Origin: Mytilus galloprovincialis
Taxonomy: Eukaryota > Mollusca > Bivalvia > Mytilida > Mytilidae
NCBI RefSeq assembly: GCF_965363235.1
Contig: NC_134843.1
Coordinates: forward strand, 64,395,865-64,459,864
Length of the DNA: 64,000 bases
Reading direction: 5' to 3'
A model generated the notes under the pieces. The model did no database searches. It was not told the DNA's origin and saw only the letters and a list, made by a program, of their open reading frames with translations. The translations under genes were made by a program, and so were the position numbers. Within the stretch, counting starts at the first letter, position 1. Each line of letters opens with the position of its first letter. Shown here piece by piece: positions 486-38,800 of this stretch.

Positions 486-579
486 ATGCCGACGTATAAA
501 CATTGGACGATTCAACTTATTAATGAAATTGAACTTCATCTGTTTTTAGATTCAAAAGATGCTGGGCAGTACTTTGCAG
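486..579 (+). CDS. exon 1 (residues 1-31) of the ParB-like gene
   Basis: ATG at 486 is the first after an in-frame TGA at 459-461, with G at -3. The frame stays open for 31 codons plus one base to a strong donor (GCAG|GTACGT). The peptide begins MPTYKHWTIQ and ends DAGQYFA; it is not recognised. It exits in phase 1, which fits the exon at 7898 directly, giving a split Asp codon. Confidence 0.6.
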
Positions 580-6900: not shown

Positions 6901-9900
6901 GGGGTTTTACTCATCTAAAAAGGGTGATTTTCCAGTTTACAGACAATAACTCAAAAATGCTTTCAGCAATTCTCATGAAACTTTGGTAAATGGTTTATAT
7001 CTATTGTTTTTTCATCAATTTCAAATATGACACTGAGAAGTAATTGAACTTCATTCTTTGAAAAAGTGACGCGCGTATCATGCGCTCATGATGCAGCTGT
7101 TTATCATACATGTTAGCATGGTGAGTTTTTATTTTTCTGAGTTATGGGGTTTTATAGGGGGAAATTTACAAAAGCGCAAGTTATAACTGTATCAGCAGTA
7201 TCTTTAAAGGAGCTAGATTTTTAAGTTTTCACATAAAATTCAGTAGCCTTTTCTTAAAAAAAAACCAAAATTTAAAAAATCTGATTTTTTATTCCGTTAA
7301 ACAAGTTATTTTTAGAAGAGAATTGCTGAAATACATTTTAAGCATGTCTTCACCATGCATGTAAAAATTGTTATATTAACAAAACAAATAGGCCACTTAA
7401 TGAAAATACATCTAACGAAAACAGAATGGCCAGATACTTGTATATCCCAACAACATAAAATCACTTGGTACATATCTGAGAGTACTCACATTCTAACTGA
7501 CAGCTAGTTCAAAGCCACAAACAACTAATTAAAAAAGTCTAAGACTAAATTATCCATCAGTACACATCCAACATTCAATGGATTTAGTGTAAAGAGGTAA
7601 TAAACAGTGACAAAGAAAAACATGACCTTGTGCAATGCCAAAATACAGGTATGAACAGATTGTAGATCTATGAATGTATATATGTATACAACAATAATAT
7701 TTAGTCTTCTTTTAATTTACTGATAACAAAATCAATATTAATACCAATAAAACATTATTCAATGATCTAATCATTGTGTTGAATTGATAACCTTTTATAT
7801 ACTATAACAGTGTTAAAAGTTTTTTTTTAAAGAATAATGTTTTCTAATCATGTCAATAAAAATAATGTTATTTTGATTTATAACACATTAATTTCAGATC
7901 AGTCTCTTACTAATTTACAAACACATGTACAGCATATAACATGTATATCAGAATGTACAGACGATATAAAGAAAATACAGGTACATTTTATATTGACAAT
8001 TTTGATTTTAAAGAAAACCACTCACTTACTAATTTCGTTGTCATCGTGAAATATGATCATGATGTACTGTTTTCTCCATTAAAATGTGCATGTCTTAATG
8101 CTTCTTAAATTTAGAAATAACTATTTAAGCACATCTGCTAGGCCAAGTTTTATTTTTTTTTATGAAAATCAGTCTTTGGTTTTTATTTTAAAGATTGAGC
8201 AAAAGTGTTAATTGCAGAACTGTACGGCAAAGTAAGGTTTATATACAATAAACAGTTGGATAATAAGATTAAAATTGAACCAGAAAGTTTGTGTGACAAA
8301 AGTTTTCATATTTGAAAAATGCACAGGGGCCATAACTTGTGAAACTACACACCTAATTGTGTATTGCTACCTCAGATCTACAGATATAAGTCAAATGACT
8401 GAAAATCACCCTAATATTAGAGTTTTTGCCTTTAATAGATGATTTTAAGCTAATTTCTTAGTTTGATTTACCAAAAATCTGTAATGGATAGGAACATATG
8501 ATGGAAATTTAAACATATATGCAAGTACCAATATTCTATAGATATGTAAAACTATGCTATCATTATTTTACTCATAGTTTAAGACTGTACAGTGACATAT
8601 AGCCTTTAATTTCTGTGTCATGTAGTCTCTTGTAGAAGTTTATTTCATTGGCAATCATACCACAACTTCTTATTTTTATTATATAGATGAAAGATAATAG
8701 AAACAACAGGTGAGCAAATTCAGGCTCTTGTGAGCCTGCTGTTATTTATTATCATGAGTAGGCATTTACAGTATACTGATTAAATTAGCCATTTACAATA
8801 TAATTTTAGGTGAATTTTGGGACATCAGTATTAAAGCTTAATAAAAAGAAATTCACAGGAACAACTTTGTTTGGTCTAATGATAAATGATACAAAGAAAC
8901 TGCTGAAGTTCTGGCTCGACACTGGAGAATTCTTAAAAGACAGGTTACTATAATTATTATTATTTTGATATATATAATCTCTTAAAATAAATAGTTGTGC
9001 GCACCATTCTTTGACAATGAAGAAGTTGACTCCTAATTTTTAGTCTTTTAACAAGAAACAAATTATAAGGGCTTCAACACCCTATAGTGATCAGACTGTC
9101 TGTGTATCCATCTGTGCTTCCAATTTTATGTTACAAATAATGTCTTGTCTGTAACACTGCAACTTCTAACCAGAACACAATTAAAGTTGCTATGCTGTTA
9201 GATTTAATAGATTACCATGTCCAGTTGTGACATCCAGTGTCAGAATTTTCAAAATAGCCATCATGCTCAAGTTGACTGCTTAAACAAACATGTAATTTCA
9301 ATACAAATCCTGTCTGCATGGTCTCACTCCCGTCTGATATTTTGTGCATTATTATTTTCGATATTATGTACCTCAATGTACATGTTGTAAGATGCAAAAT
9401 ATTATTTTTTTGTTTTCTTATTGTGCAAATCTCATATGATAAATTATATAATTCAAAATGGGATCTTCTGCAGTTACTGGCAGATGGCTAATGAATTTGA
9501 TGTTTGTTATAATATATTAAGATCTATTAAAACAGTATACATGCAGTGAGGTGAGAGATTTGCTTCGCTTTGCAGGCTTCACTATGAAATTGAGATGAAG
9601 AACAGTAATAAAATTGTGATTTTTTCCTGTACATGTACAGATTTTGTTGTCATTAATGTTTCCCCAATATCCTCTTTTTTCAACTATATATAGATTATAT
9701 ATATATGGCAGATTCCATATAAAAAATGGAAATGTCTGTCAAAATGAATAAATAAATAAAAATAATAAATACTGTTATTTGAAAGATAATCTGTGAATGT
9801 TTTGATGAATAATGATATTAGATAAAATTATAAAAATGTATATGATTTTTTCCGTTTAAAGTAGAAATGATTAAAACAAGTTGAAAAAATGCCAAAATTT

Positions 9901-12900
9901 TGACGGAATTAACTCCCTGGTCCCATTTTTTTACACAATGTTTATGTGTTGCAAGGCTTTATGTTGAAACTTGTATACTGCTAAAACTAGTGTAGTCTGG
10001 TTATTCAAACATTACTGTTCCCAAATCTGTTTCTTTTTTTTAGTCAAAACATCTGTGATATATATATTTTTTTCACTTTCAAATATCTTGCTTTATAGCT
10101 CAGTGTCTGTCAATAAATCTTATTTCAGGAACATCTCTGTAAAAACTTTCAAAATCATTGTTGGTTCCAATATATGCCAGTTAAAACTGTAAATCAGTTG
10201 TGCATAAGAAAAAACACATGTTGATTCTTTCATTTAACTTTATTCAAGCAATAGTTTAAACTTATATGTTTCCTACATAAGATCTGTCAAACTTGTTTTC
10301 TTTCGTCTGAAACATTTGAATGTGCTAACAGTTAAGAGTTATTTGACCTGTGGTGAAATCTTGTTAGATGCTAGGCTGCAGTATTTTCCAGGAAATTTAA
10401 AAAAGACTTTCAACTAGGATTTGATTTCCAATGTCAGTAAAGAAAAAAGTCAAATATAAATTGTCTGTCAAAATATCTTATGTATGAAAAATCTTATGTC
10501 AGAATCAAGTCTGTCAAAATTTTATGTCCGAAACTGAATTTGTCTGTCAAATCTTATGTCAGAAATAATAAAGTCTGTCAAATCTTATGTCAGAAATGAT
10601 AAAGTCTGTCAAATCTTATGTCAGAAACAATAACGTCTGTCAAATCTTATGTCAGAAACAATAAAGTCTGTCAAATCTTGTGTCAGAAACTCAATTTGTC
10701 TTTCAAATCTTATTTCAGAAAAAATAAAGCCGGTCAAATGTTATGTCAGAAACAATAAAGTCTGTCAAATTTAAGTCTTATGTCAGAAAAAATAAAGTCT
10801 GTCAAATCTTATGTCAGAAACAATAAAGTCTGTCAAGTCTTATGTCAGAAAAAATAAAGTCTGTCAAGTCTTATGTCAGAAAAAATAAAGTCTGTCAAAT
10901 CTTATAAATAAATGTCAGAAAAAATAAAGTCTGTCAAGTCTTATGTCAGAAAAAATAAAGTCTGTCAAATCTTATGTCAGAAATAATAAAGTCTGTCAAA
11001 TCTTATATCAGAAACATAATATTTAAGGCTTTGTTAGGGCCCCGCCTTTAGGCGGGTCGCCCTATAGTGATCAGTCTGTCTGTCCGTCCGTCTGTAACAC
11101 TTTAACTTTGTGTCCGTTCCATATCTAGAGAACCATTATGATTTCATACTTTATACTTTACATGTTTATTAACCACCACCAGAGGGCGTGTCATGATGTA
11201 TGTACAACTTCCTAGGTCAAAGGTCAAGGTAAAAAAACTTTGGTTTCAGTTAACAACCCTGTGTCCTGTGGTGAAGATCGTGTCCGCTTTATATCTTGAG
11301 AACCGTTATGATTTCAAAGTTTATACTTGACATCCATTTTAACCAACACCAGAGGGTGTGTCATGATGTATGTACAAAATCCTAGGTCAAAGGTCAAGGT
11401 CAAAAAAACTTTGGTTTCAGTTGATAACCCCGTGTCCTGTGGTGAAGATCGTGTTCCCTCCATATCTAGATAACCGTTATGATTTTATACTTAATACTTA
11501 ACATGTTTATTAACCAACACCAGAGGGTGTGTCATGATGTATGTACAACTTCCTAGGTCAAAGGTCAAGGTCAAAAACTTTGGTTTCAGTTGACAACCCT
11601 GTGTCCTGTGGTGAAGATCGTGTCCGCTCCATATCTAGATAACTGTTATGATTTCAAAGTTTATACTTGACATCCATTTTAACCACCACCAGAGGGCTTG
11701 TCATGATGTATGTACAACTTCCTAGGTCAAAGGTCAAGGTAAAAAAAACTTTGGTTTCAGTTGACAACCCCGTGTCCTGTGGTGAAGATTGTATCAGATT
11801 ATCCATACAACTTATTTACCCCACGTTATTGACAGTGGGGCCCACAGAGATGGCTCCCATCTCAATGGTATATAGTTTATTTAAAAAGGACGATGCTTAT
11901 AATTTTTTTTGGTCAAATTGTCTAAATATCTTTATTAGTAAAGCATGTATTCAAAAACAGAAGTTCATTGCTGATGACTTTTGCCTAGCATGCTTATGGG
12001 AGTTGTTTCTCTTTCTTATATGGAATCTGCCATATATTATTCGTCTAAATAACAGCCCAACAATGTTAGATCTGTAAATTAGTGGAAGCAAATTTTTGTT
12101 CTTCCCTGGCTGGGATTCCAACTCATGCTACTGAGATATCGTGGCACCACACTGCAGTGGTCTATGCCTGATGGTCTAGACCACTTGACCACCTAAGCTT
12201 GACAAAAATGAACCTTTTGGTGGAAGGGTGTTACCTTTCCTTGTCAGTTACATCTGGTAACCAAAAGCTTGATTTTTGCACTTAAAAGGCTGAAAATGCA
12301 TGACATATTTATATTCAATATGAATATTCACATTTTGTCTATTAAAACATCAAATTGTTCAAAAAATGTTCTCCATAGTTTCCTACTGGTTTCACTGTTT
12401 CACAGATATCCATGAATATAGATACTAGTTTTTGGTGTTTTTCAGCCTTATTTTTTTCCTATATATATCTGGGTGTGTTTTAGGGAAAGATATGTTCAAG
12501 AATCTTCTTCTAGTAGTGAGCAATCAGAAGGAGATGATGAGTATTACAATGAGCCGGTCCAGAACATTGATAACCTTTCAAATGAAGACAACCCCTTTGT
12601 TACACAACTGTCACAAATTTTACCAGAAAGAGCTATCAGTATAAAACATTTGGATGTTCAACATGCTGAAGACAATTTTTCCCAAGGATCAAAGGATGAA
12701 AGCTTAAATGATGAGTCCACAAGGTTGAACAGAAAACAGTTGATGAAAAGTATTAGTTTAAAAGCAATTGGGTTCAAATTCCTAGACATATTTACTTTAA
12801 AAGAACCACCAAAAAGGTTCAAAGTCAGAGAAGCTGATGAAAACTTTGTTGAAAAAATGGCGAATGTAATGGTTGAAAAAAATTCTGTAAGTGTTGATAA

Positions 12901-15900
12901 TGCTCCAAATATAATTGGCCTTATTGACATAGATAAAGTTGATTACAAAGAAGAAAACTTTTCTAACTATGAGGTATATATAGTGGATGGGAACCACAGT
13001 ATTAAAGCACAAAAAGAGGCATACAGACAGACAAAAGACGAACTGTTTAGGCATCGTGGAGTTTTCATATACTGTGGTTTAACAGAAAATGAAGCAATTC
13101 TGCTTGGAATCAGCAGAAATGAGGACACTGAATCGTTTGTGAAGTTCTCTGATTTTCAGAAGGTTGATGTACTGAGGCGTCGATTGTATTCCATGACAGG
13201 CACACCAGCCCATGCTGATCCACCTACAGTTCCTAAAGAATTTAAGGATGTATTTATCACTCTACTTAACTTGCAAGGTGTAAGTAACAGTTAATTGCAT
13301 CTATATAGATCTTTTAAAAGTTGAAGTAAGAAATATGAATGGATCTGGTTTATGTTCATGCAGAAAATCTTTATGCTCTATTTGACCAAACAAAGTTGAT
13401 AGGGAAATGTTAACAATTGAAGTAATCTGCCTTAAAAGAAATCAACAAAATTGTCTAAAATCAAGCCAAATCAAATCAAAGTTTTAAACTTTAAACATAA
13501 AACTACTCAATACTACATACAGGCAAGACAAATCTCTGTGTCATCAGCTTTTCAATCAAAAACAACACCAATTCAAACAAGTATCACAAGTTGAAATTTT
13601 TGTAAGTTACAATTTATGTCCAGAACATTTTTTAGAAAGCATGAGTCTGTATAATTTATATTACTATCTACAATTACATGTAGCCCAGTCAGTAACCAAT
13701 TTATGCTTATATTATAAGATTGTTTGCTTAAGCATACTTGTCTTTATAGTTGACACTTTCAATTCAACAGTAATGTTTTTTTTTTATATTTGATCAGAAA
13801 AAAAATAATTAGCAATTCCTGCATGTATCTGCTTTACCTATAGATGTTTAACATTGTGTATCTTAGAAGCATAGTGAACATCGTGAAGGTATCAACTGAA
13901 AACTTAAAATGTTTCAAATTTTGTTCTGTTTTGTTTAAAAAAGGTGACTACTCTACTGAAGTCTGCTCCATAAATCATGCATGGTACCCAGGAAGGTACT
14001 TTCAAAATGGAGTAAACATCTGAAGAAGCAATTTTATAATTTTTGAGCATTTCACTGTATGAAAACACTCACCAATATTTAAATTCCGAAGTGCCTTCTC
14101 CATGCATGAATTTAGGAAACTGCCATGAGAAAAAATTATATATGAAATCATTTGTAATTAACTACAATGACTGTTCTGTATTTTCACAGAAAAAAGCAGT
14201 AGACAGCAAAAGCATGCTGAGGTTCCTTGCAACTGGACTTTCCTATCAATGCTATGAACTGTTTAAGAATATATGCTCAAAAAGCACTGGAAAGATTCCG
14301 GCTTCAAAATTTGATGGGTTAAAGGGTTTGAAGGAAGAAGATGCATTATTTTGTCTCATCGATCTCTCATGTAGCAACCTTCAAAGAAAAGATTGGCAGA
14401 AATTTAACTACTTGTGTCAAAGCAAGCAATCAAAGCCAAAAAAGGTATTTTTTTTTAACTTTTAGAATGTAGTAAGATGCAGCATAGTTTATGCATAACG
14501 AATTATTTCAGTAAACCTGTACATGCAGTCTACACTTCTAGTGAAAAAAGGACAGGATTAGGATTAATACAAATCTTGGAACAAATCTGTCATCATCTGA
14601 AACAAAAATTCAATAACAGTCAATTAACTCTTGATGGCATCCATACAATTTACAACAGAATAATTCCATCTTCACCATTTTGAACTCTTGGTTAAATAGT
14701 GCATCAACTCATGATAGCAAAAACAAGCCCTGGAATATTATATCAACTAGGAGATATGTGCCCCATATGCATGCTGGAATGTTTTCTACGTAAGTAAAGG
14801 CCTGTACCAAGTCAGGAATATGACATTTGTTATTCATTTTTTTTATGTGTTTGAGCTTTTGATTTTGCCATTTACTTGGGGACTTTCCGTTTTTAATTTT
14901 CCTGGGAGTTCAGTATTTTTGTGATTTTACTTTTTGCTACATAGAAAAGGAAAGTTTGCAATTAAATTGAGTATGATCTATTGGTGCGTATATTGGTAAT
15001 GACCCCTTAACCTGAAATAGAACACTAACAACAGATTAAAATTATGTTAGACATTCAATTTTTAGTTTATGTCTGACATTTTTTCAGTTGAGGAAAGATG
15101 TAACACTAAATATAAAGTTCCAAACAAAGTGTACTCAGGGTTTTATTGGACAGAAACAACTTGCAGGGAATTACACCTGGTTTCATTTCACTGATTGTAA
15201 TAACAAGCAGATTATCTTAACTGATAAAGAAATGGAAAGGCTGGTGTTTTGTAAGTTCTTTATTTATTTTTTTAAATATTTGTTTTTGTTTTTTAATGAT
15301 AAGTAGTTTTAAACACTTTCCAAATGCTACTGAATTTCTGGACAAAACTTTGGCAATTAGGTCCTTTAATATGGGACCATTTTTCAATCGAAAATCAGGT
15401 GAACTCCAAATATGTCTCCTTTTCTGCATATTCATTGAAAAAAATATAAATTCGAAAGTTTTGTATATTTTTTTTATAAGAATCATTTGTTGAAATAATA
15501 CTTTTCTTCAATTTAAATACACAACATGCGTTGTGTAAAAGATCTGAAATCTCTTACCTAAAACATTGGCATATAGATCTATGGCCTAAAAAGTTGACAT
15601 ATACAATGTAGATTTATGGCATAGATCATTGGCATATAGATCTGTGGCATAAAGAAATATTGACATTTTAAGAACTATAACCTAAAGCATTAACATATCG
15701 ACCTATGGCATCTTTTAACAGTTAATTGGAATTTTCATTATCTTTTTTTTTTCAGCATCAAAAGACAAGAGGCTTCCCATATCTTCAACTCCAAATTTGG
15801 ATGGTAATTTTTGTTAACAAGAGAAAACAATGAAAAGACAATTTTTTTTTTAAATCAGTTTTTTTCTTACAATTCCATATTAACCCTTGAAAATTGATAT

Positions 15901-18900
15901 AATACTGATGACTGTATTTTTGTTCAGCTGAGATTTAGGGAAAGACAAGAGAATAGTGATTATTTGATAGATCTTTTATATTTACCGTTGCTCCTCTGTA
16001 AGTCTGTCTGTCCCAAAAGTTATTTCAGTTCTTTAACTTTTAAGTTTCCTTCAACCAAATGTTGTGAAACTTATACACAATGCTAATTATTACCACCAAA
16101 CTCAGATTAAGTTTGAATTTGGGTGTTGTCACTTTCACAGTTCTCAAGTTATTTTCATTTATAACTAGAAACAAATAAAAAGTATACACAATGCTTATTA
16201 CCACCAAATGAAATGCAGACAAAGTTTGATATTTGGTGGGGTCTTTTTTGCTGTTCTTGTGTTATGTTCCATTGTAAATACTAAATTGCAGAGTTTGCTG
16301 TATTTATAAGTGGGAGCATGGAAACATTTTTATTTAATTTTTAATTTTGAGTATATGAACAATTAGAAATTAAAAGAAATGTAATGTGCTTTTCAGATGA
16401 ACAAGATTTTGTGGATACATCCTCATCTCAAAGAAGCAGTGGTAAGTTTTGTGATTAAAATAGATAACAAGCAACCAGAGTAAGGGTTATAGCAATAAAC
16501 AGAAAAAAAACTAAACAGTTTTTGTAGATGGCATCCAATGAAATTTACTAGATTACAGGCTCTTGATTCCGGAGAGGCACTAAAACAATGTGACAGGGTT
16601 TAACATGTTTGTAAGCACTTGACACCCCTCCTAACTTGGTGTAACGTTGAAAGGATAGAACAAACTCATTAACAATCAGTTGAAAAGAATCACATCAGTA
16701 CTCCAAAAAGTTTGTTCTCATTGCTACCTAATTATATGTAAAATTAATCTCTATCGGGTGGATTCACTTTCCTAACAGAATAATATGTTAACCTGTACAT
16801 TGAATATTAAAGAAATAGAGAGATTTGAACACACCAAAATTGTTGATTGCAGAAATGTGCCATATCATATATTGCTGCTTAAATGATTAATCTCCTTCAT
16901 TAAAATGAAATCCTTAGTAATTTTAAAATAAAAGTTTGTTTGCATATCTTTTTACTTGTTATTTAAAAAACATAGGTATTTTTTTCTTCAGACCTTGATT
17001 CAACAGATCAATTTTTGACAGGAGCAGAATGTGGTAAGTTTTGGCTCACTTACAATAAATGTCACTGAAGTCAAACTATGGCATGCTGATATTGTAATCT
17101 GTCGTTGGCTTTTCAACAGTTGTGAAAATTTCCAGTAAGTCAATTTAAGGAGTGTCACTAAATGTAAGTCAATGATATATGATATGCATTTTTCTTGGGT
17201 TGGCATATCATTTCCCTGTAGATCATTTGGATGCCATCCCAAGTTGTTATACATTGTACTTCTAAAATTTACTTTGAAACTTTTGAACAGTATATTTATA
17301 AAAAAAGAAGATGTGGTATGATGGCTAATGAGACAATTCTCCACAAGAAACCATTAATGACACAGAAATTGACAGCTATGTGTCACTGTACAGCCTTCAA
17401 CAATGAGCAAAGCCCATATAGTATAATCAGCTATAAAAAAAAATTACAAATGTAAAATAATCAAAACTAGAATACTAACTGCCTAATTAATGTAAAAAAC
17501 ATTGAACAGAATGTGGTGGGGTTTAATAAATTAGTCCGAACCCATTCCTCCCCGTAACCGGGGACACAGTGGTGTAACAGTGCAACATAAAAATGAACTA
17601 TAAAAATGATTTGTCAGTTTGTGGTTATAGACACATTTATATACTGAAATATGTTCTATTTTAGCAGCTACCACTTCGTTTCTGGGAACTACAAGTTTTT
17701 CATCTAATGGTATGTTAGACAAAAGACTATTTTCATATTACCGACTTTTGACTGGTTTATATTATTGTTCGACAGGTTACCTACGACATCCAGGTACTCG
17801 GTCAATTAAGATAAAAGTAAAGAAGTGACATCAAACATTAGATCTGTACAATTCTTAGGGGAAATATACTGCTTCATATTCTCTTTACACGACAAACTCA
17901 TTAGTAAATAGTAAAATTTCCCCTCAAACCACACCAATTAAATGTTTAATGTTACTTCTTAACGTTGCTCTTAATCGACTGAGTGCAAGGATGTCGTAGG
18001 TTATAAACAGTAATCAAGGATAACTTTTGTTTTAATGTTTCTGTCTTACATGTATATACTGTTTACTGTAATTGTGTATTCTACTTGTACTCCTCTTTAC
18101 ACCCTTTAGAAAAATCCTTTTCAGTATTTAAATGCAGTTCAAAAGAGTTTGCAATTTTTTTAAAGTCTGCTATTTTATATTTCACTCTTATTTTTCAACA
18201 TGACTGGCCACGTAAATTGAAATACTTAATGAAGAAAACTGTTTTGTTCCAGGAAATCCTTCTATTTTTTGTTCCCACACTTGTCACCCAGTATATTAGC
18301 ATTAATTTAGAGTTCCCAATATCAAATATAATCTTTTTGTATGTGATCAAGTTTACATGCATGTGTGAAATGTTCTAATTTTTAAATTTTCAAATATTAA
18401 AAACAGATTAACAATTTCTTTTTTGATAAATGGGATTTTTAAACCCTATATTTTATTTTTACTTAGTCATCACTTTTTAGGAACACTTTATTTATAGTGA
18501 TTATGATAATTGTCACACCTGAAACAAAGTTAGTTAGATAAGAACTGCTTCTCATTAAGTAAAGTTATTGTATATAAAGTTGAATTAATTAATTTAAAAG
18601 GTTGTGGGCTCTGTTTTTTCTCTCCTACCTATAGGAGTCTATTGCTGTATTTTGAAGAAAAAAGACTTTCAATTAATGCGAAATTTTCAGTGATAAGTTT
18701 TCTGCTTAAGTAAGCTTGAAAGGAACTTCTTCTGAAAGATCAATGTTATTATCTAATAGTTTTATTACTATCAGTACATAGCAGTACACTATTCCAGGCC
18801 CTGCCCTTAGGTCATTGTAAAGTTTTCTGTCTTAGTCATTTTGATAAGAGTAACTTTAGATACATCAATGATTTTTTTTTTGAATTTGCATTACTATTAG

Positions 18901-21900
18901 TACACATCAGATTGAAGATTATTTCAAGGCCATGCCATCGATTGAAGGTTCTTGTTTAGTGACTTTGAATTAAGTATAAATTTTCAGTGTAAAGTTTTCT
19001 TATTTAGTCAGTTTGACAGGATCTTCTTGTGAAAGATCAATGATACTTTGTATAAAGTTGCATGTCTATCAGAAAATATCAGTTTTGCAATTTTGTTAGA
19101 GGCCCTGCTGCTTAGTATATGGTCCAATGATTTTGAATGTTAAGTTTTCTTGTTAAGTCAGTTTGATAGGAGCTACTGATAAAATAAAAGATATTTTGCA
19201 TAGTTTTAAGTGGTACATCTATTACTATCCATAGGCAGATCCATTACTGGATCATGACTGGAGCCCCCCCCCCTTTAGGGCAGTCAGTAGGCCCCCCTTA
19301 CAAAAATTTCTGGATCCGCCACTGCTATCAGTACATATCAAAATGATGACTGTTTTATGGCTCTGTCCTTAGTCATGGTACAGTGATTTTAATTAATAAG
19401 CAGTGATGCTGTCCATCAAATTTGCTTTTTCTAAAATTCTGCAGACAGACAAGATGCAATGTTTTTATTATTATTTAAGGAGAAACATTTTCTAATGACC
19501 GGCTTACAATATTATCCCTATTATTATACACAGTTCTGTAATTGCAGGTACCAAAAGTTCCCTGGGTATATCATTTTCAATGAAACTAAGTGGTAAGTTT
19601 TGTAAAATTATTCTTGCAAGATTCACTCTTAAAAATATTACATTACACAACCATGGCTTTCTGTTCAATTGTTTGTAAAAAGTAAAATCACAAAAATACT
19701 GAACTTAGAGGAAGATCAATTCGGACAGTCCATAATCACATGGCAAAATCAAATAACAAAACGCATCAAAAACGAATGGACAAGAACTGTCATATTCCTG
19801 ACTTGGTACAGACATTTTTAAATGTAGAAAATGGTGGATTAAACCTGGTTTTACAGTGCTAACCCTCTCACTTTGATGACAGTCTCATCAAATTCCGTTA
19901 TATTTACAATGGTGCGTTAACTAAACAGACACACAATCAATAAAATAGTCAAAATATGGGTACAGCAGTCATCATCATGTAACAATTTTAAAAGGAACAA
20001 TTTAACAGAACACAAAAACATCTATCTACAAACACATTCATTGATTTGCGTGTCTGACGTCAGAAAATTTTATACGTCACATGTATTTGTCTTTCAATGT
20101 ACATACAAACAATTTTAAAATTTCACATATGCAATGTTAGCATACAGGGTTAAAAAATCAAAAGTATGTAAGAATAAATTTCAGAAATAGACCAAGATTT
20201 GAAATAGTCCAAAAGTTATATAGAATTTATAAGAATCCACAAATAGTTAATTCCACTATGCGATTGAAGTGAAAATATTTTTAACACATAAAAACTAACT
20301 TTACATGTTTTGAAATATTGTTAATTTTTTTTATTAGTCAAGTTTACTGGGAACCACTTATGGCAAGATTTTAGTATGCAGTTGTTATACTCCTGCTTTA
20401 AAAAAGTTAGGGTATACATGTTGTTTTCAATTTTTTCTCCCTCTGTCTGTCTGTCGCTCATTCCCATGAATAATTTTTCCTTGAATTTTTCTCAGGAACT
20501 GCTTTACAACTGCAAGGATTTCTGAAATTTGGTTTCAGGGTTATATGAGTCAGCTATACCATGTGATGTGTTGTCAGATTCATAAGCAACAAATTCCCAT
20601 CTACCAAACACTTGCATCATTTCAAGTTATTACATGACATCCAAGTTGAAAATTTTCATCACAATTTTCAGTAACTACATTACAAGGATTTCTGAAATTT
20701 TGGTTGATATGAGTCAGCTTTACTGTGTGCTGCGTTTTCAAATTTATCACTCAACAACTTCCTGTTCACTGAACACTTACATGCATATTTTTACACTATT
20801 AACATTTTCCAGTAGCTCACAGTTTCACTTGTTTTAACTTTGGGTTATCTCATCTTCACTGAGATGAAATGGCATATTGCACTTTTGGTCATGGTTCATT
20901 GACTTTAAATATTTTGCAGAAGTATTGCTATATTAATTTCAACATTTGGATTATTTTTAATGTCATATCAACATTTTACTTTATTTATTTGGAAAACTTG
21001 GTATTACCACACTTGATTAAGTAAAGGTTGTGTATAGATGCCTAAAAGTAAAACATACTATGGAAGGCCACTCTTTTCTACATTGTAAATGAATAATTTG
21101 AAATGACAGTTTTATAAATGTTCACCTATAAACTTGAATGATATTGTTCTAGGGTTTTTACATCACATGGCTGATTCAGATGCTGTTTTAAGAGCAGAAT
21201 CAGGAATGTTCTTAATTGAAGAAGAAGAGGTGGAGACAAAGCCAGAACAGTTGATCAGTTATACTGATGTGTTGTTGTGTCCAGAAACACAAACTGCAGC
21301 AGAGCCATACTTTAGTACAGATGCATGGCTGCTTGTTTTAAATACTCTCAAAGTATTAGAAGGTAATCAGTCTAAATATCTATAATATGGCATTGACACC
21401 TTCCCTTGGAACTGATTTTTCAAATGATATAAAAGGTTTAATCTAAATGGTTGAAAATATATTGAAAGGTACAGAAAGGCAGTCAAAAAAAAACCCCATA
21501 AAGCAAAGAACATTGGGAAAAAACAAAAATAATACCAACCAAGATATTAAACAGACCTATGTTTCTGGGATCTCCTTTACTTAAGCATGTTTAGCTCTTG
21601 AGAATATCATGTAAAAAGGAAGCATTGTTTTTCATAAGAAAAACATTTAATAGCAAATATCAGAGCATGATGCAGATATTCACAGTTTCAAAACTTATTT
21701 GAATGACTAGGTTTTTTTTAAATGATTTTATACTATAGTGTTATTTTTAAAAAGAACCTTCAATTATATTATTTTCATTACTTTTTTATGTTTTAGATAT
21801 GTATATTGTTAACACTCAGAAGAAATATGGTATGATTTCTCAATCTCGGACAAGAAAAGGCAAAGCTTTAATAGGATCAGCTAAAGGTTGGTCATAAAAA

Positions 21901-24900
21901 AAATCATTTTGAAAAGAAATATAAATATAAGGACATGATGTGTAATAGTCAATGAGACAACCATTCAGAAAAGCCCATTAAACAAGTTTTAAACAAACAG
22001 ACCATTGTACGGTCTTCAACAATAAGACAATAAGAAAAACCTATGCCTTCTGGAGAATTCAAAGTTTAAGAGACCTGAACAATAAAAATATTGGTATTCT
22101 ATTTGTCAAGAATAAATTAGAAACCTTTTTATCAAATCAATGATGTGACTATAAAAACAACCATACGAGTTATCTCATTCTGATTAGATATAGCATGTTC
22201 TGGAGGGTTATTTTGCCAATAAAAAAAGAAACATATTTTTCGCTTGAAACCCTCCTGATATTTCTGCTTAATAACACATACCATTAATACAGATGGGAAA
22301 GTGAAACATTTGATATTGATTTCAATTGTTCTTTCTCTTTAAGGCATTACTAAAAAAGTCACAATTAATAAAGCAAGCTATTGATTAAGCATCATTGTGA
22401 AGTGGGAAAAGAAGTATAATTTGAGCAAATACCATGGTTGAGATTGTGAACCATGATTTAGCATGTTACTAAGACAATTAGTATATTCTAATTCCATTTA
22501 AAGAATGTCATTGTGTGTAAAATATGACCAAGCTTTGGCTTTGTCTGAATCAGTGAACCAGTTTTAATGGTCAACAATAGTTATTATATATGATATAAAT
22601 TTAATTGCAAATTCATGTATGATTCTTGTTAACAACATTTGTAGCAGTAAAAAAAAATATTTAAAAATTTCACTTTGTAAACTTTATTATTGAATTAAGG
22701 ATCCAACAGTTTATAAATTTATTGTAGGAAGAATATTAAAAAGTGTTCAAAAAAGAAATCAGACCAGATTGATTCAGGTAATTAATTCTTTCAAGAAGAA
22801 AAAAAGGAAAAATCAAATACTTAACTGTCCTTCATTGGTTGAAAGGTCATTTTGGGAATTGCCATTTATTTGGTGTCAATCATATGTAATTAAAAACCTG
22901 CTCTTAAGAGCCTCAAGCTTTATATATTGTTGATTTTACGTTTTTGATTTATGGGAATTTATTCATAAAAATTTGAGAGAATTCTGATTAAAACTCAAAA
23001 ATGCTTTGAGGGATTTCCATGAAACTTTGGTGAGCGGTGGTGTAGTGGTGAGTGTATCGGACTACTATCACAAAGTTTCCTGGTTCAATTCCCAGTTGGA
23101 ATGAAAATTTCAGGAACTGAATTTTCAGCTCTCCCTTGACACCATTTGCGAGTATGGTCTTGAGGAAAGGATGATAGTCCGTTGGAAGGGGACAATAAAT
23201 AGCTGACCGGTGTTAAGAGAGAGCCATATCTCTTGCATGTAAGAGACACCCTTGTAGATTTCGAAAAAAAGCAGGCTAATGCCTCTACAAGGCAGCAATC
23301 ATACCTGCAAAGTGGAAAGAAATTGATATAAGTTGCAAAACTTGTTTCCCAATCCACTATAAATAAACATGTGTAAACTAAACTTTGGTGAGTTGTTTAT
23401 TTGCATTGACATACCTTCCCTTTTCTTATTTTAAATTTTGTTGATTTTATGTTTAAAAGGAGTATTGGGATTTTATTCATAAAATAGGAGGGATTTTCAA
23501 GTTTTCTAACTCTTACACAAAACGCTTTGAGCAGTTTTCCTGGTGACTTGATTACATGTATAACCACCCTTTTTTTCAATATAAATTTCTGATATGAAAT
23601 GAATACCACTGCGTTTTCATGTCTCACAATTTACCATTTTGGGGGCAGGAGTCTATTTAAGCAGTGCTCACGGTATTTCTAGCGGATCATTTCTTTAAAG
23701 CATAATGATAATGAAGAGCTGAAAGGGTGGTGAGGTGTATATCATGCCTTCATGGCCCAGTTCTTTGATAATTGTATCTGACAGACACCCACTGCCTGTT
23801 TGCAGATACTTTGAATATTTAGTTTGATGTTTGAACTTCAATGTTTTTATTACTTATTTCTCCAGTACAGCGAAATAAAACTCATTCATCTAGTTCGAGC
23901 GCATTTTCATGTTGTCAGCTACTTTGAATAATGAGTGGGTTATGCTTAGCAAAATATGGGGTGCAGTTTTGCTTTCTAAATTTCTAGCAATATATTAACA
24001 CAGTCAGTATTGTACATAAAAGTTTACCATGAATGAGCATAGTATTTTATAAAACCAATACTTTTTAAAAGGATCAGCAAGTCATTAGCAGGTCATGTGT
24101 TATATTTGTTGTTGGGTAAGGTTAATTTTATTTTACTTGTGTTAGAATATTTGGGTCACAATGAGCTACATTTATTAGATGTGTTAGCTAAGTCAAGTTA
24201 TATCTGAAGTATTTGGTGATAAGATACTTATTTTTAGAATATATTGTATTACAATTGAGCCCCTAATGTAATGGTGTGACTAGTCAGTTTCTTCATCACA
24301 GTCGCATTTAACCCTTAATAATTGATTACTTTATAGGAAAAAGAAATGTATATTCCTTCACAAGTGAAGACAGTTCTCCACTAAAATCAATGGAAGGTGA
24401 GTGAGTAAAAAAATGTTATATTCAAATTAACTTTATTTTAGAAAAAAACAATATTTAGCTCACCTTACTCATAGGGACAATGTAAGTTGAAACTATGACT
24501 TATTCTTATATCCATATAAATGATTGTCCTTAAGACCAAACAATTGTTAAACCATTTGGAAACCTGAAGCCTTATTTTTTTCTGTAGTTGTCTTGTTTCA
24601 TAATAATTTATAGGTAATGAAGATTAAAGTTATGACCTATTTGTAGGAAAAACAGATAAAAAATCCTCAACAAGTGACGACAGATCTCCATTAAAAGCAA
24701 CAGATGGTAGGTATATTTTCTTATTTCAGTATGTATATATACAGCGTTATGTTGTCCTAGATATAACTATGTGTCCAGCCTACTTCAAAGAAAAGGAATT
24801 ATATTAGGCATGTCAGATACTAGATTTAAGTTTAGTTTATAGAACAAAGTGATCCTAGACATGCTTTATTGGCTTCGTTGTCAACAGTTATATGGATCTG

Positions 24901-27900
24901 CTTACCCTTCTAGATCACCTGATATCACCCTCAGTTTTTGGTGGGGTTCGTGTTGCTTAGCTTAGTTTTCTATGTTGTGTCTTGTGTACTATTGTTTGTC
25001 TGTTTGTCTTTTTTTGTTTTTAACCATAGCATTGTCAGTTTATTTTCAATTTATGAGTCTGACTGTCCCTCTGGAATCTTTCGCCCCTCTTTAAGGTTCA
25101 ATCTGAGGTTACAGTCTTTTGAGAAATCAAACATTGTGTCAAACCTTCATGAAATTTTATGAAATTTGAAAAGAAGGTTGTTTATGACCAACTGACAGTA
25201 TTCAGAGCAAAGTTTTGAAAATAATCATATAAATATATAGTATACTGTATAAATATGTTTGAAGGACTTTATTGGATAATGATTTTTGTAGGGAGAAGAA
25301 ATTTGAATATTTTACCAAGTGCGGAAAGTTCTCCAGTAAAACCAACATATGGTGAGTATGAATTTTAACTAGACATTTTTAACATCCGGATTAAATTAAT
25401 GTGACCAATTTTTTTTCTGGGCTTTTAATGAAAATACATAGAAACCATATATTTTCAGTATCAGGGTAAGATTAACTGTTTTTTTGACACCTTCATTGTC
25501 TACTTTTCACCTTTCTTATGTTTCTTTTCAACTAATACCATTTGTAATTAAGAGTGTAAAGACCTATATAAGTCTCTGAACAATTGGTATTATTATTTTA
25601 TTCAAAGTAAAATTGAGAATGGAAATAGGGAATGTGTCAAACAGACAAAAACATGACCGAAGAAGAGCAGAAAACAGCCGAAGGCCACAATTGGTCTTCA
25701 ATACAGCTGGGCCCTAAACAAAAATGTGTACTAGTCTAGTGATAATTGATGTCAATCTAAACTCTGAAATATATTAATGAACTAAACTTAAAAATTAATC
25801 AAGATGAACAAAGGCTAGAGGCTTCTAACTTAGGACAGGTGCAAACATGGGATTGGTTAAACATGTTATTTTGAGATATCCCCTATGCCTCTTGCTTGCC
25901 AATACAGAAAAAACAAACACACAGCAATATGCACAGTAAAAGAATAGGTAACAAAAGAAACAAAAAAAATGACAATGGTACATAAATTAACAAAGTAATA
26001 CTAGCATTTACTGACAGGCCAGCTCAAGACTTCAATTAAACTGACTGAAAGTTAATGTCTTCATCATATGAATATCAATCACAATTCCTCCTGTTAGTGA
26101 TTTAGTATCATTACATCATAAAATATATGAGAAGTACATAACCCGTATCATGCAAAGACCCCCATTAGTGAATCAATATTAAAGCTAAAATTTGCCATCT
26201 TTAATAACATGAAAACAGAATCGTAAATATATCCCTTTTTTAATAGGTCTTTTTAAAGATTTTGAGTTGAAAGCTGACATTTTTTGCCTTTGTAAAGAAT
26301 TTAACCGTATTGGATTTGAAACACTAGAAAGTATACGAAGTCTGCATGCTGATTTCTATTTATGAATGATGACCTTGTACTGATGATAAGATTTAGTAAA
26401 TGTTTTGACTAGTTTATTATATCTAAAACCCTGGTGTAATTATTTTTCAGTAATACATAGATTTCTTTAGCTAAAATCTAGTACATTGTTACATACACAA
26501 GCGAAATTGTAAAAGTTGAAATATAAACACCATAAGATGGTGAAAAAGGAATGTCACCATCTAAAAATGGATAATTAACAATATGAAATGTTTACTTTTT
26601 CAGATTTAAATGATGCTATAGATGTGTGCCCAATTTTAGAAAAGACCAGTGAAAATACTGGAGACGGTGAAAAGATAAGTGAAACTACTGGACAAGGTGA
26701 AAAGATTAGTGAAACTACTGGACAAGGTGAAAAGATAAGTGAAACTACTGGACAAGGTGAAAAGATAAGTGAAACTACTGGACAAGGTGAAAAGATTAGT
26801 GAAACTACTGGACAAGGTGGAAAGATTAGTGAAACTACTGGACAAGGTGGAAAGATTAGTGAAACTACTGGACAAGGTGGAAAGATTAGTGAAACTACTG
26901 GACAAGGTGGAAAGATTAGTGAAACTACTGAAAATGGTAAATATTCTGAAGTCTTTACAATATCAAATCAGTCAAAGGTTGTATTGGTGACTGTGGCTTC
27001 TCTTCAAATTTTTGAGATGGCCACCATATATACTTAAAATTGAAAGATTGTGTAAGGCTGAAGGTTTTATAATATCTCTTAGTATTTAATACAGTGGACC
27101 CAATAGAGATTGTTTGCATCTCACTGATATTTACTTTACCATAGGGGAGATGTTTTATGAATGTGATAGTTTAGTTTCCTTATGCAACAATCTTTCTCAG
27201 GTGCTTTGCTGTTATTTTGATAGTTATTTTTGAAATGAATGATAACTGATTAATAGGATTTAAGGTGTGTGAAAACAAATTTAAGCTTCATAATGCAAAA
27301 TTAAAAGAAGTTGAAATAATGATAAAATTGAGAATGGAAATTAGGAATGTGTAAAAGAGACAATAACCCAACCAAAGAGCAGAAACGTCTGAAGGCCCCC
27401 TTTGGGTCTTCAACACAGAGAGAAAATCCAACACCTTTAGCTGGCAACTAATAAAAAATGTGTACTAGTTCAGTGAAAATTGACGCCACACTATTATTCT
27501 CCAAAACATATAAATGAACTAAACAAATAAGTGTCCCAGGTTAGGTGAGGGTTGGGATTCCCCTAACTGGGTATTAGGGGAATAGAAATTTGTTGTACCC
27601 TGAGATAAAGCCAAAAGTAATAGTTGTATCTGAGAGGACAATAAACTTATTTTTCCACAAATATCCAGTCAGTAAGACTTTTATTATACTGAAAGAGACA
27701 ACATACACAAAATAATGCCAGGGACTGAAGGACATAGTTGACCATGATTCATTTATACAAATGTAAGAGACAGCAGACACATTGTGATGACACCTTGTCT
27801 ATCTCTTCTAAGGTATAAGATGGCTGTCTTTTTTTTCAAGGTAGTCAGAAATAATCTTTTGTCAGTTTGAATGACTGAATTTGTGTTTTTGGCATTCTAA

Positions 27901-29008: not shown

Positions 29009-29084
29009 CTCCTATATCAGCAAGAAATTATATATATATAAAGAAGTTCAAGTCAAATATGAACTTTATTTTTACATTATACTA

Positions 29085-30198
29085 TATATAAATATAATAC
29101 TTTTACTTAATCATGCTGCTCGGAAATACAAGTTGTCCAATTATTGAATTGAATAAAAGACAAATATTGGTGTATAACGATCTTCATACTGTTAGCGTTC
29201 AGCCAGGATGAAGAGGTTATGCTCCAAATTAGATTGAGTTATTATCTTTATAAAAAAAGGAAGTGCATTCTAGATTCATTGATAGAGCTGGAATCTTATA
29301 GTTATTTTCAGTTATGTTTTGAGGATAATGATATAATAAGTCTATCTTGTGACTTTAATATTTTATTGTTGTTGTTTTGCTTAAACAATATGTAAAGTTT
29401 TTTGTTAATAAATTTTGTTTCTTTATTCATTCCATGTTCTGTTACATTATCAGCTTTTTTGTGAACCCTCAGAATTTGTTGATAATCTTTGGCAACATAA
29501 ATGTCAAAATATTCATGCATCATGCATCTTTAATTTTATTTTTCTTTGCATAATATGTACCATAATGTATATAGAGATAATCTTTTTACCTAATCATTCT
29601 GCTCGGATATACAAGTTGTCCAATTATTGAATTGAATAAAAGACAAATATTGGTGTGTAACGATCTTCATACTGTTAGCGTTTAGCCAGGATGAAGAGGT
29701 TATGCTCCAAATTGGATTGAGTTATTGTAGTTTTAAAAAAAGGAAGTGCATTCTAGATTCATTGATAGAGCTGGAATCTTATAGTTATTTTCAGTTATGT
29801 TTTTAGGATAATGATATAATAAAGTCTATCTTGTGACTTTAATATTTTATTGTTGTTGTTTGCTTAAACAATATGTTAAGTTTTTTGTTAATAAATTTTG
29901 TTTCTTTATTCATTCCATGTTCTGTTACATTATCAGCTTTTTTGTGAACCTTCAGAATTTGTGGATAATCTTTTGCAACATAAATGTCAAAATATTCATG
30001 AATCATGCATCTTTAATTTTATTTTTCTTTGCATAATATGTACCGTAATGTATACAGAGATAATCTTTTTACCTAATCATTCTGCTCGGATATACAAGTT
30101 GTCCAATTATTGAATTGAATAAAAGACAAATATTGGTGTGTAACGCTCTTCATAATGTTAGCGTTCAGCCAGGATGAAGAGGTTATGCTCCAAATTGT
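29085..30198. repeat. 483-bp tandem duplication, about 2.3 copies
   Basis: ACAAGTTGTCCAATTATTGA recurs at about 29129, 29611 and 30094, with ATGAAGAGGTTATGCTCC following each. Copies differ at a few percent of sites. Each unit has short open stretches that are copies of each other and not genes. Confidence 0.9.
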
Positions 30199-30436
30199 AT
30201 CTTGTTGATTATTGATTAACCCTCAAGGGTAAAGACCAAATGTTTGCACATTCAAAGAGTGTTTTGAAAACAATATCCACATGATTGTCTGAAGGTTTGC
30301 TATGGTGTAGAAGCATCTTGAAAACATACCTGCTCTGATCCTTTTTCCTTTTTGGGGTGGGTAAGAATATAATTCTTAATAGGGAACTATAATTAAATAG
30401 TTGGGAAAAAAGGAAAAAGGATATTGCAATTCTATC

Positions 30437-31132
30437 ATGAATAAGCTAATTCTTCATTTAAACTTTGGTCATGATGGTGAACCCAGTGTGGTTACCATTG
30501 CGCCCCAGGCCAAAGTTAATTTAGCACTAAAAAGGAGTGAGTTTTTATTAGATGTTGTGAATAATTATATGCAAATGCAAAATGAAAATGATATTGTAGA
30601 AATAGAAATTATTTTATCGGAGTATAATCGCAATTTTACATTAGGCTTTTTATTTAAACACTTATTAAATGACAATAATGAAGTAAAAAGATGTAGAGAG
30701 GGCAAAACAGCTCATCTTGTTCCACTAATTGAAAAGTTCCAACTTGAAACAGACTTTGTTAAACTGCTTCTGCCACGAAAAATCAGTGCAAAAAATGCTG
30801 TTGCAATTCATTCACTTTATATCAAACCAATGTATCGTTCTGTCATTAATGAGTTTTATTTACTTAATTTACATGGAGTAAATTCACAGGGACATATAAG
30901 TGCAGAAGATTTTATGAGGTTATTGCACGAACTTAAAACCTGTCATGCTCATTATTTAGTGCACATTTTACCAGTTTGCATTTGTTTGAGATGCACTGAA
31001 TATAGACATGAAAGACTTAATCAACTTTCAGAATGTACCTATGCAACACCTTACCATGGTCCTATTACAAATAGCCCTTTCCGTAATTTACCAGTAGGAC
31101 AACAACAGTTAACAGGTGGCAGACCTGGATAA
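30437..31132 (+). CDS. uncharacterised 231-aa protein, apparently single exon
   Basis: ATG at 30437 is the first Met in a frame open from about 30401; the stop TAA is at 31130-31132, and AATAAA stands at 31199-31204. The protein starts MNKLILHLNFGHDGEPSVV and is evenly mixed, soluble and without signal peptide. Residues about 5-110 have a pattern loosely like a BTB/Skp1 fold (LILHLNFGHDG, later VEIEIILSEYN, LVPLIEKFQLETDFV), but that is a guess. The middle is helical; residues about 150-190 hold several Cys and His (CHAHYLVHILPVCICLRC), and the end is Pro/Gly-rich (TGGRPG). A frame this long is unlikely by chance in AT-rich DNA. Neighbours say nothing about function. An unseen 5' exon is possible. 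Confidence 0.65.
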   Translation: MNKLILHLNFGHDGEPSVVTIAPQAKVNLALKRSEFLLDVVNNYMQMQNENDIVEIEIILSEYNRNFTLGFLFKHLLNDNNEVKRCREGKTAHLVPLIEKFQLETDFVKLLLPRKISAKNAVAIHSLYIKPMYRSVINEFYLLNLHGVNSQGHISAEDFMRLLHELKTCHAHYLVHILPVCICLRCTEYRHERLNQLSECTYATPYHGPITNSPFRNLPVGQQQLTGGRPG

Positions 31133-35140: not shown

Positions 35141-35510
35141 AACATGTTATTTCTTTTCTTTTTATTGCAGGATGATACTAAACCAGTTCGAAATTTTCTT
35201 TTCTTATTTCTTTTATAGATAAATTGTATTCAGCTGAATTATTGAAAAGCTGAATGCAGTTTCTCTGGCACAAAAGAAATTAAGGTTTTTCAACATAGAT
35301 GCGAATTGTTTCTCTTTATGAAATGGTTATTTAAAAAGATATATGTAAGTAATCATACATTAAATTTAAAACACAGGTTTTTAGCGAAAAAACATAGATT
35401 TTTAGCCATTTTGCAATGATTCAAAACAACCCATTTTGAGAATGAAAATTGCAGTGAATCAAAATTTATTGCAGTCCGTTGTGTATAGTTTTCACAAATA
35501 TTATTGAATT

Positions 35511-35814
35511 ATGATTTATACGAATGTATTCGGTTTTATCTTATTACTGACAACTATTGTTTATTGTGAGAAATTCTTATTCAAAGCTTTGAAGGTACTA
35601 AACCACGAAGGAAAAATTCAGTATTCAGGAGCAGTAGGAATTACTATAGAAAAAAGTCGTTTGTTCTGTTACATAGGATGCATAAGAAATTTGAAATGCT
35701 TAACTTTTTTCTATAACGATATATCTCAAAAGTGTGTTTTACATTCAAAAGCATTCCATTTTGAAGGACCAGACCAAACTGAACAAGGATGGATTGTATA
35801 CGTACTTGAAAACA
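35511..35814 (+). CDS. lectin-like gene, exon 1 (signal peptide and PAN-like part)
   Basis: ATG at 35511; donor AAACA|GTAAGA after 101 codons plus one base. Four Cys in the PAN pattern. Confidence 0.8.
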
Positions 35815-38800
35815 GTAAGATTACAAATATCTAAAAAAAAAAAAAAAGAATTCATTGTTGATGTCATATTTTATAATAATATTAAACTTAAAAATCAAAA
35901 TAAATATAAAGCACATCTTTTAATTTAATATAAATCTAAGCCATATGATCTCTTACACTTTCAATTCTTTTTTTTTCGGAGTCTCGCCACTTTTATTGCA
36001 TAAACTTACAGTGAGTCTATACAGACTATTAAATAATCTACAACAATAAAATGTAAGTTCCGATTCTTTTTAGAAAGACAAGAAACTGTACAAAACTTTA
36101 TAAATATGAATCGTAGAGGAAAACACTTTGCATTTCTGTAATTAATGTCAAAGTTATCTGTGAAAAGACTATTTTTTTTTTTCGTACAAAGTTTCCTTTT
36201 TCCACTTAACAGCAAGAAGTCGATGCCACTTTAACAACAATGGATTCTTGTTATACAGGGAACTAAATGTATGTCATAACTTCAATATAGCATTGCAAAT
36301 AAACTACACTGGTTTTATGGAGCCAACATGTTTGTCTTACGGTGGTGCATTGGTTAAGATAGACACTCAAGAGAAACAAACATATATTTCTCATGCACTT
36401 GGTGAGTATGAAATAAGAAAAAAAACCAGTTTATCAATTTTATTATTAAAACCAAGAGAAAGCTTGAGAGATTTTCCTGAACTCAAAACGGATCGGGGCC
36501 ACATTTTAAGATATATAGCACATTCTGCTAAAAATACAACAATCGTCATGCAAATGCCGATTCATAATCACGAAAGGAAATAGGACATACTGTATTTCAT
36601 AAAACAATACTACTTGTTGAATAAAATTATCCGACCGTTGACTTAACAATTTTTTATTATCAAATTGTCGTTTACTCTATTGTTCGATTATGCTATTCAA
36701 ATATACAGATCATGCATTAAATGATCATCTAGTAATATGCCTGACAATTGACTGAACTTCAATTGGGTTTACATTTTATTGGGTTTACATTGCTTAGGTT
36801 TTTTATATAGTCTTGCCAATGCATTGTTAGTTTGTCTCGATGTATGAATTTGGATATCCTTTTAGTATATTTCTCCTCTTCATTCCATCCTCTTCAAATT
36901 GCTAAAGTGTTAGGTCGTTGATACAAAAATAAATAAAAACAAATCATCAAGTGTATAATATCATGCAACATATATTCAACCAACTATGAACTACATTTCC
37001 TTACATCTATTGATTCATAGATCACATGCTTGTCCGTGAGCTTTCCAACTACTTTGACTCATCTACACTAGTAAATGTTTAACTGAAACGGTTATTTTGA
37101 TAAGCACAAATCATGAATATCAATTATATGGTCATTTTTATTAATTTCCTGTTTACAAAACTTTGAATTTCGGCAAAGATGACCCTAGCCGCATTTGGCA
37201 CATGGTTTTTGGAATTTTGAGTTTTCAATGCTCTTTAACTTTGTACGTTTTTTGGCTTTACTGTGAATTCATTTATTTTCGTGGGTGTCAATTTTCGTGA
37301 ATTGCTGAAAACTTGCATATTCAAGGATATTTGATTTCGTGGTTTTGCCAATCTTTGTATACAAAGCCTATTGAAAATATGCTATTCGTTGAACATTTAA
37401 ATTCGTGGTTCACCTGTACCCACGGAACCCACGAAAATTGGTATCCAACGAAAAATAGTGAATCCACAGTATAACTATTTATAACTATTTTGATCAGAGC
37501 GTCACTGATGGGTCTTAATGTAGACGAAACGTGCGTCTTGCGTAATAAGTAATAATCTTGGTACCTTTGATAACTAATTAAAAGACTGTACAAACGTTCA
37601 TTCAATTTCTTTTCAGTCCCTTTTCTTATTTTCTATAGTACTTTACTGCGGTAAATTGTGTACTGTTTAAACAGAAACAGTAGACAGTAGTGTAAAGAAA
37701 AAAACATAAAAATACACTATTGATATACCAATTGACTCCATCAAAAATACATTTAAACAGAAAAAAGTAAACATACACTGAACGATTACGTTTTCTTAAT
37801 AAATACAATATTAAAACATATACTGTGGATTTGTTTATTTTCGTGTATATCAATATTCGTGGATTGAGGAAACCTTGCATATTCGTGGATATTCAAGTTC
37901 GTGGTTTTGTAAAAGTCTGCATACATTCCTTTACATCAAATTGCAATTCGTTGAACATTTTAGTTCGTGGTTCCCCTGTTCCTACGAATTCAATGAAAAT
38001 AAGTATCCAACGAAGTAGGTGCACAATATACCTCACAAATATAGAATTATTTCGTTTTTCAACTACTTGACTGTCTATTATAAATAATAGTACACTATTT
38101 TCATAAAATAAGCCATGAAAAAATATGTTATTATAACGCAATTGATAAACTTCGTGCTACTAATGGTGATTTCGTACCTAATAAGATTTGATTTTTTACG
38201 TCTTTGCTTCATTGTCCCGTGAATGAAAAAAAAAGGAAAACATTTAAACAATTTAATGGGCATTTAAAAAGTCATTATGCGAATGAATATCTTCAAATTC
38301 TTAAGGATCGTTTTTGATAAACATCAACCCAACAATGTTAGATCTGTAAATTTGCTTTCGCAAATTTTGTGTTCTTTCGTCGCCGGGATTAGAACCCATG
38401 CTACTGAGATATCGTGACACCAAATCGCCTGCACTGTAGCCGTCACGCTAGACCACACGACAACCTGGGCTTCATAAAATGAAGCTTTCGGTGGCCGGGT
38501 GTTACCTTTCAACGTCAGTTTTAATCTAGCGTCGTACTACAGTACATGATATATAAGGCATGGAGATGTTATTTTTACAGATCAGCTAAAGTATCTATAG
38601 TAAAGGATCCGACAAATTAATGTAAGATACAGTCACAGAAAATAATTATATTTATAAGTACGTCTAAGCCAGTGACAACTCTACAACAGATTTATCCATC
38701 GGATCACCAGCAGTGATGGTGATACATGGCTGTGTACATTATGTATATACAACTTGTCTAAACATCAACCCAACAATGTTAGATCTGTAAATTTGCTTTC

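Follow-up and report, generated by a model that had tools for sequence, protein, structure and literature searches.

The ParB-CTPase fold (ParB, Noc, KorB, PadC; PF02195) was surveyed in 2025 in PNAS across the EukProt proteomes, using sequence models including PF02195 and TIGR00180 at gathering cut-offs (PMC12704722). According to the available part of this survey sulfiredoxin is the most common eukaryotic ParB-fold protein, the nucleotide is not predictable from sequence, and the proteins assayed no longer bound nucleotide once the GxxR arginine in box II had been exchanged for alanine (PMC12704722). ParB-like accessory genes are also described on giant algal transposons, among them a ParB-like + methyltransferase gene on Sola1 of Ectocarpus, in the available part of that report (PMC12477816).

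Here a window of 64,000 nucleotides from Mytilus galloprovincialis was analysed, in which exon 4 of a spliced gene encodes a domain predicted to follow the order of the ParB-CTPase fold: a first strand precedes the helix of box I, a second one the loop and helix of box II, and a third one the helix of box III. In difference to the described members, the mussel domain has neither GxxR nor ENxQR, is missed by Pfam, and sits in an 18-exon animal gene with an acidic linker and a basic tail. Our preferred reading, to which we give a probability of roughly 60%, is a divergent ParB/sulfiredoxin (Srx)-fold domain that would have lost the arginine grip, in a Mytilus gene family whose protein is most likely nuclear and whose gene is perhaps cargo of a repeated block of about 55 kb. 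No literature was found that links ParB, sulfiredoxin and mussel together.

Gene structure and relatives in Mytilus

The gene LOC143081002 extends from 486 to 28312 and its 18 exons, joined in an in-phase GT-AG chain, give a product of 910 aa (Table 1). The first-pass annotation had placed five ParB-like stretches in a 796-bp exon inside a spliced gene. Both claims were borne out: exon 4 (12484-13279, 796 bp) is bounded by an AG acceptor and a GT donor, all five stretches lie in its single open frame at coordinates that were checked, and public Mytilus models agree on this frame. Four of the ten matches of a protein search with residues 190-520 of the spliced product were such models, namely P0010, which is LOC143081002 of M. 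galloprovincialis, the window's own gene (100% over these residues), P0011 of M. edulis (100%), P0012 of M. trossulus (94%) and P0013 of M. coruscus (92%).

Table 1. Features of the LOC143081002 locus (positions in the window)
Feature	Position	Strand	Remark
KRFKVRE	12812-12832	+	exon 4 frame
helix FVEKMANVMVEK	12845-12880	+	exon 4 frame
box I equivalent (KRFKVRE and helix FVEKMANVMVEK)	12812-12880	+	
box II equivalent VDGNHSIKA	12983-13009	+	Ser at the GxxR arginine position
ENEAILLGISR	13085-13117	+	exon 4 frame
NEDTE	13118-13132	+	exon 4 frame
box III equivalent SRNEDT	13112-13129	+	
exon 1	486-579	+	start codon, MPTYKHW; GT-AG chain; same N-terminus in M. coruscus P0013
exon 2	7898-7980	+	GT-AG chain; P0013, P0017
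exon 3	8810-8943	+	GT-AG chain; P0013, P0017
exon 4	12484-13279	+	acidic linker rich in Ser (up to exon residue ~78), predicted ParB/Srx-fold domain (~83-217), more helices to 261
exon 5	14190-14444	+	small helical domain
exon 6	15088-15250	+	GT-AG chain; kept in paralogs
exons 7-11	15756-19592	+	five exons of 42-48 nt each; GT-AG chain
exons 12-13	21153-21886	+	conserved helical region
optional exon	22729-22778	+	omitted from the 910-aa model
exons 14-16	24337-25351	+	three 60-nt exons, one SPLK or SPVK in each
exon 17	26604-26936	+	minisatellite exon, tandem GEKISETTGQ-type repeats
exon 18	28143-28312	+	conserved RLTDIGTIKNLK, basic tail EKKRKRRKICLKNL
block part inside the window	1-35480	.	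block of ~55.5 kb with further copies on C4 and C7; ends on the right at 35480

In the full-length P0012 model, residues 581-650, which belong to the exons 12-13 region, have pLDDT values of 81-90. In the full-length model the exon 5 domain shows a weak structural likeness to the SYNCRIP acidic domain (the NURR domain of hnRNP Q/R) and to the ParB middle domain, and a sequence and profile search of the PDB gave no SYNCRIP chain for it. On C4 and C7 the optional exon has one base more than in the window, and the public model P0010 does not get as far as this exon, as it reads on past the donor of the preceding one. The repeats of exon 17 vary in copy number and length between the proteins of different Mytilus species. 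Intron 3 contains two minisatellite-like arrays (10489-11014 and 11051-11789), the second of which is found again close to where the 55 kb block begins on the left, and just 3' of the last exon lie direct repeats of several hundred bases which are about 95% alike (29079-30196).

Three protein searches were performed: with exon 4 as query (8 proteins), with residues 190-520 (10 proteins, all Mytilus), and with a profile, where 19 matches were obtained at E up to 1 among the best 7996 candidates scored, the named ones again all from Mytilus. Within this scope none of the searches gave a named relative outside the genus. The 23 retrieved proteins are non-independent rows: there are many orthologs among them, and P0001 is exon 4 of the window itself. 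Six of the seven proteins from short contigs (P0002-P0008) continue past LNLQ, LNLH or LNLK into apparently the same intron while P0005 ends earlier, so the boundary of exon 4 appears to be conserved. That the pattern is more than chance is indicated by the family alignment A2, with 56 invariant columns in 9 sequences, and by the dN/dS values given below. Three candidates for domain fusions were rejected: P0009 has only the linker in common, while P0022, which has a degraded tandem copy, and P0023 from M. coruscus, a NADAR protein with ~40 residues in common, both look like displaced fragments. These ~40 residues form the end of the NADAR-domain model, resemble box III of the mussel family and are perhaps a captured fragment.

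A search of the own genome with exon 4 gave 24 matches. Those on C6 (the contig of the window), C4 and C7 are 99-100% identical. The remainder are two paralogs, one of 77% identity on C11 and one of 54% on C14, together with 19 incomplete pieces that lie on C11 and C8. The partial copies cluster at C11:24-36 Mb and C8:84.1-84.4 Mb, several with stops. Judged from codon comparisons, the paralogs are diverging under purifying selection with a dN/dS of about 0.2: between the window and the C11 paralog (77% identity) it is 0.206 for the domain and 0.411 for the linker, and against the C14 paralog (54%) it is 0.184 for the domain, where dS is near 1.9 and thus saturated. Recent constraint is not shown by the three near-identical copies (C6, C4, C7), where exon 4 has 2 to 3 non-synonymous differences and no synonymous one.

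The repeated block of about 55 kb

Aligned in pieces of 300 bases or more, the window is collinear with C4 and C7 from position 4 to 35480 at 96.8-99.5% identity, with insertions between the pieces. The three copies, each on a chromosome of its own (C6, C4 and C7), all stop at the same base, 35480, and their flanks are unrelated. Leftward C6 and C7 continue together for another 20 kb, near 98-99.5% identical in large pieces, to a common left end at C6:64375875 and C7:90885127, which is given by a single match of 174 bases with repeat-rich DNA next to it. The block measures 55,470 bp on C6 (64375875-64431344) and 56,284 bp on C7 (90885127-90941410). The C4 copy has its right end at 42827371 and a patchier left part of about 71-98% identity; a matching left end was looked for on C4 and not found.

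Compared with the algal transposons, it is plausible that the mussel ParB-like gene travels as cargo of a mobile element. Sola1 shares with the mussel locus a ParB-like domain, a long eukaryotic protein and dispersed DNA, as far as the available part of its report goes (PMC12477816). A further step would be an accessory gene of a giant mobile element, whose ParB-like protein would bind its own element and mark or silence it, as has been proposed for algal transposons. In favour of this are the dispersal of the three copies, which stop together on the right and have unrelated DNA beyond that point, and the left end common to C6 and C7. However, unlike Sola1 the mussel block has no recognised transposon ends or transposase: no inverted repeats were found at the block ends, no target duplication was seen (short repeats that the flanks have in common reach 5 or 6 bases at most and lie away from the ends), and no recombinase or transposase was found among the ORFs examined in the block. 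In addition C4 has only the right end in common, and a segmental duplication with a recurrent breakpoint fits the three copies as well. It also counts against an element in the manner of Sola1 that four full-length relatives (P0012, P0016, P0018, P0020) gave no match to any methyltransferase family at E up to 1. We therefore regard the self-acting accessory gene as possible but doubtful, and slightly less probable still is the wider proposal of a so far undescribed type of giant mobile element (~55 kb) in mussels, among whose cargo would be a nuclear protein of the ParB fold in which the nucleotide pocket has been rewired. The preferred reading holds only that the gene moves with the repeated block of ~55 kb and is perhaps its cargo.

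Five of the 15 ORFs listed in the left 20 kb were scanned against Pfam and gave no match at E 0.01. An ORF of 243 codons at 30401-31132 is kept on C4 and C7 at 99.7-99.9% identity and has no accepted Pfam family. Directly after the right end of the block, the frame 35508-35831 shows a sub-threshold match to a PAN domain (E 0.0013).

Predicted fold and altered pocket of the exon 4 domain

When the predicted exon 4 domain was compared with the PDB, the top 11 matches were all ParB-type, and in a finer structural alignment sulfiredoxin and free serine kinase rank after them. At the level of the predicted fold this supports the ParB/sulfiredoxin reading of the first-pass annotation, that is, a divergent domain of this fold encoded by exon 4. 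The same annotation was right in claiming a changed box II, as the motif DGNHS lacks both the GxxR arginine and the Srx cysteine. DGNHS is present in 20 of the 23 retrieved proteins (P0009 and P0023 are without the box and in P0022 it is broken), and in these 20 the arginine of GxxR is replaced by serine. In box III the ENxQR motif of ParB is absent and SRNED is found instead in 19/23, missing from P0005 (truncated), P0009, P0022 and P0023; most of the box III equivalent falls within 211-220, where confidence in the domain model is lowest (pLDDT 56). The ParA-binding motif (L/F/I)G(K/R)G(L/F/I) has no match in the 910-aa model.

An enzyme of the sulfiredoxin or free-serine-kinase type would bind ATP via the conserved His of DGNH and pass a phosphate to some acceptor. 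Apart from this histidine the Cys-His-Arg of sulfiredoxin is absent, since Asn-His-Ser stands in its place in all 20 proteins with an intact motif, so that the catalytic Cys is Asn and the next Arg is Ser. Sulfiredoxin contacts ATP through K61, S64 and T68, and by hand alignment these are absent from the mussel domain as well. The mussel protein is also far longer than sulfiredoxin, and it differs from the free serine kinases SerK and SbnI by the same Arg to Ser exchange and in its domain make-up. Such an enzyme is thus unlikely. For the divergent ParB/Srx-fold domain that we prefer, the triphosphate would no longer be gripped by the canonical arginine, and the domain may either bind a nucleotide via its two invariant loops, Asp-Asn-His-Ser and Arg-Asn-Glu-Asp, or have lost nucleotide switching and act as a binding scaffold.

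Profile searches had been proposed as a check of the ParB assignment, and they did not recover it. PF02195 was not among the matches at E up to 10, neither in exon 4 nor in any of the 8 members of alignment A1, and a comparison of the mussel profile (12 rows, 10 after filter) with canonical ParB was at chance. An NCBIfam scan gave nothing relevant, a sequence and profile search of the PDB gave no ParB chain, and tblastn against bacterial, archaeal and viral contigs found no relative. Two sets of tblastn hits were judged to be chance: three phage records for P0007 (E 0.3 to 2), and one plasmid record for P0003 (E 0.01) that is antisense to a transhydrogenase gene. Some likeness to the DUF6551 phage ParB-like fusions exists, as one of nine relatives scanned (P0003) matches weakly across box II; however, with E 0.039 and 13.9 bits this single member stays below the cut-off of 26.8. 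Among the PHROGs a weak ParB match was obtained in 4/8 members (best E 0.031), alongside eight other weak PHROGs.

Against phage proteins with a DGQHR motif the mussel profile scored 32.5, a value reached by none of 200 full shuffles and by 6/200 motif-keeping shuffles. The windows compared (89 canonical, 103 DGQHR) came from 240 viral loci, two of 242 having been skipped. As the DGQHR set was picked by a query-like motif, the motif-keeping shuffle is the fair control, and on these sequence scores the phage signal rests mainly on one motif. That AlphaFold put a ParB-like topology on an unrelated alpha/beta domain would agree with the weak sequence-only evidence and with the poor full-length model (the second model), which has low confidence across the exon 4 domain, and we hold this to be very improbable.

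Proposed role of the protein and possible consequences for ParB-fold proteins and mussels

Given its acidic linker, its helical modules and its basic tail with SPxK motifs, the protein is most likely a nuclear one that acts on chromatin or nucleic acid. Families that are not matched by PF02195 would escape a survey of the kind described above, and the eukaryotic range of the ParB fold may therefore be underestimated. As selection has kept a box II that lacks the arginine, the family offers a natural experiment on the capabilities of the pocket.

In the available part of their report, the authors of the mussel pan-genome ask if presence-absence variation is spread by transposable elements (PMC7653742). 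A mobile 55 kb block would be relevant to this question, and if it is indeed a giant mobile element, such elements could partly explain the presence-absence variation of genes in Mytilus.
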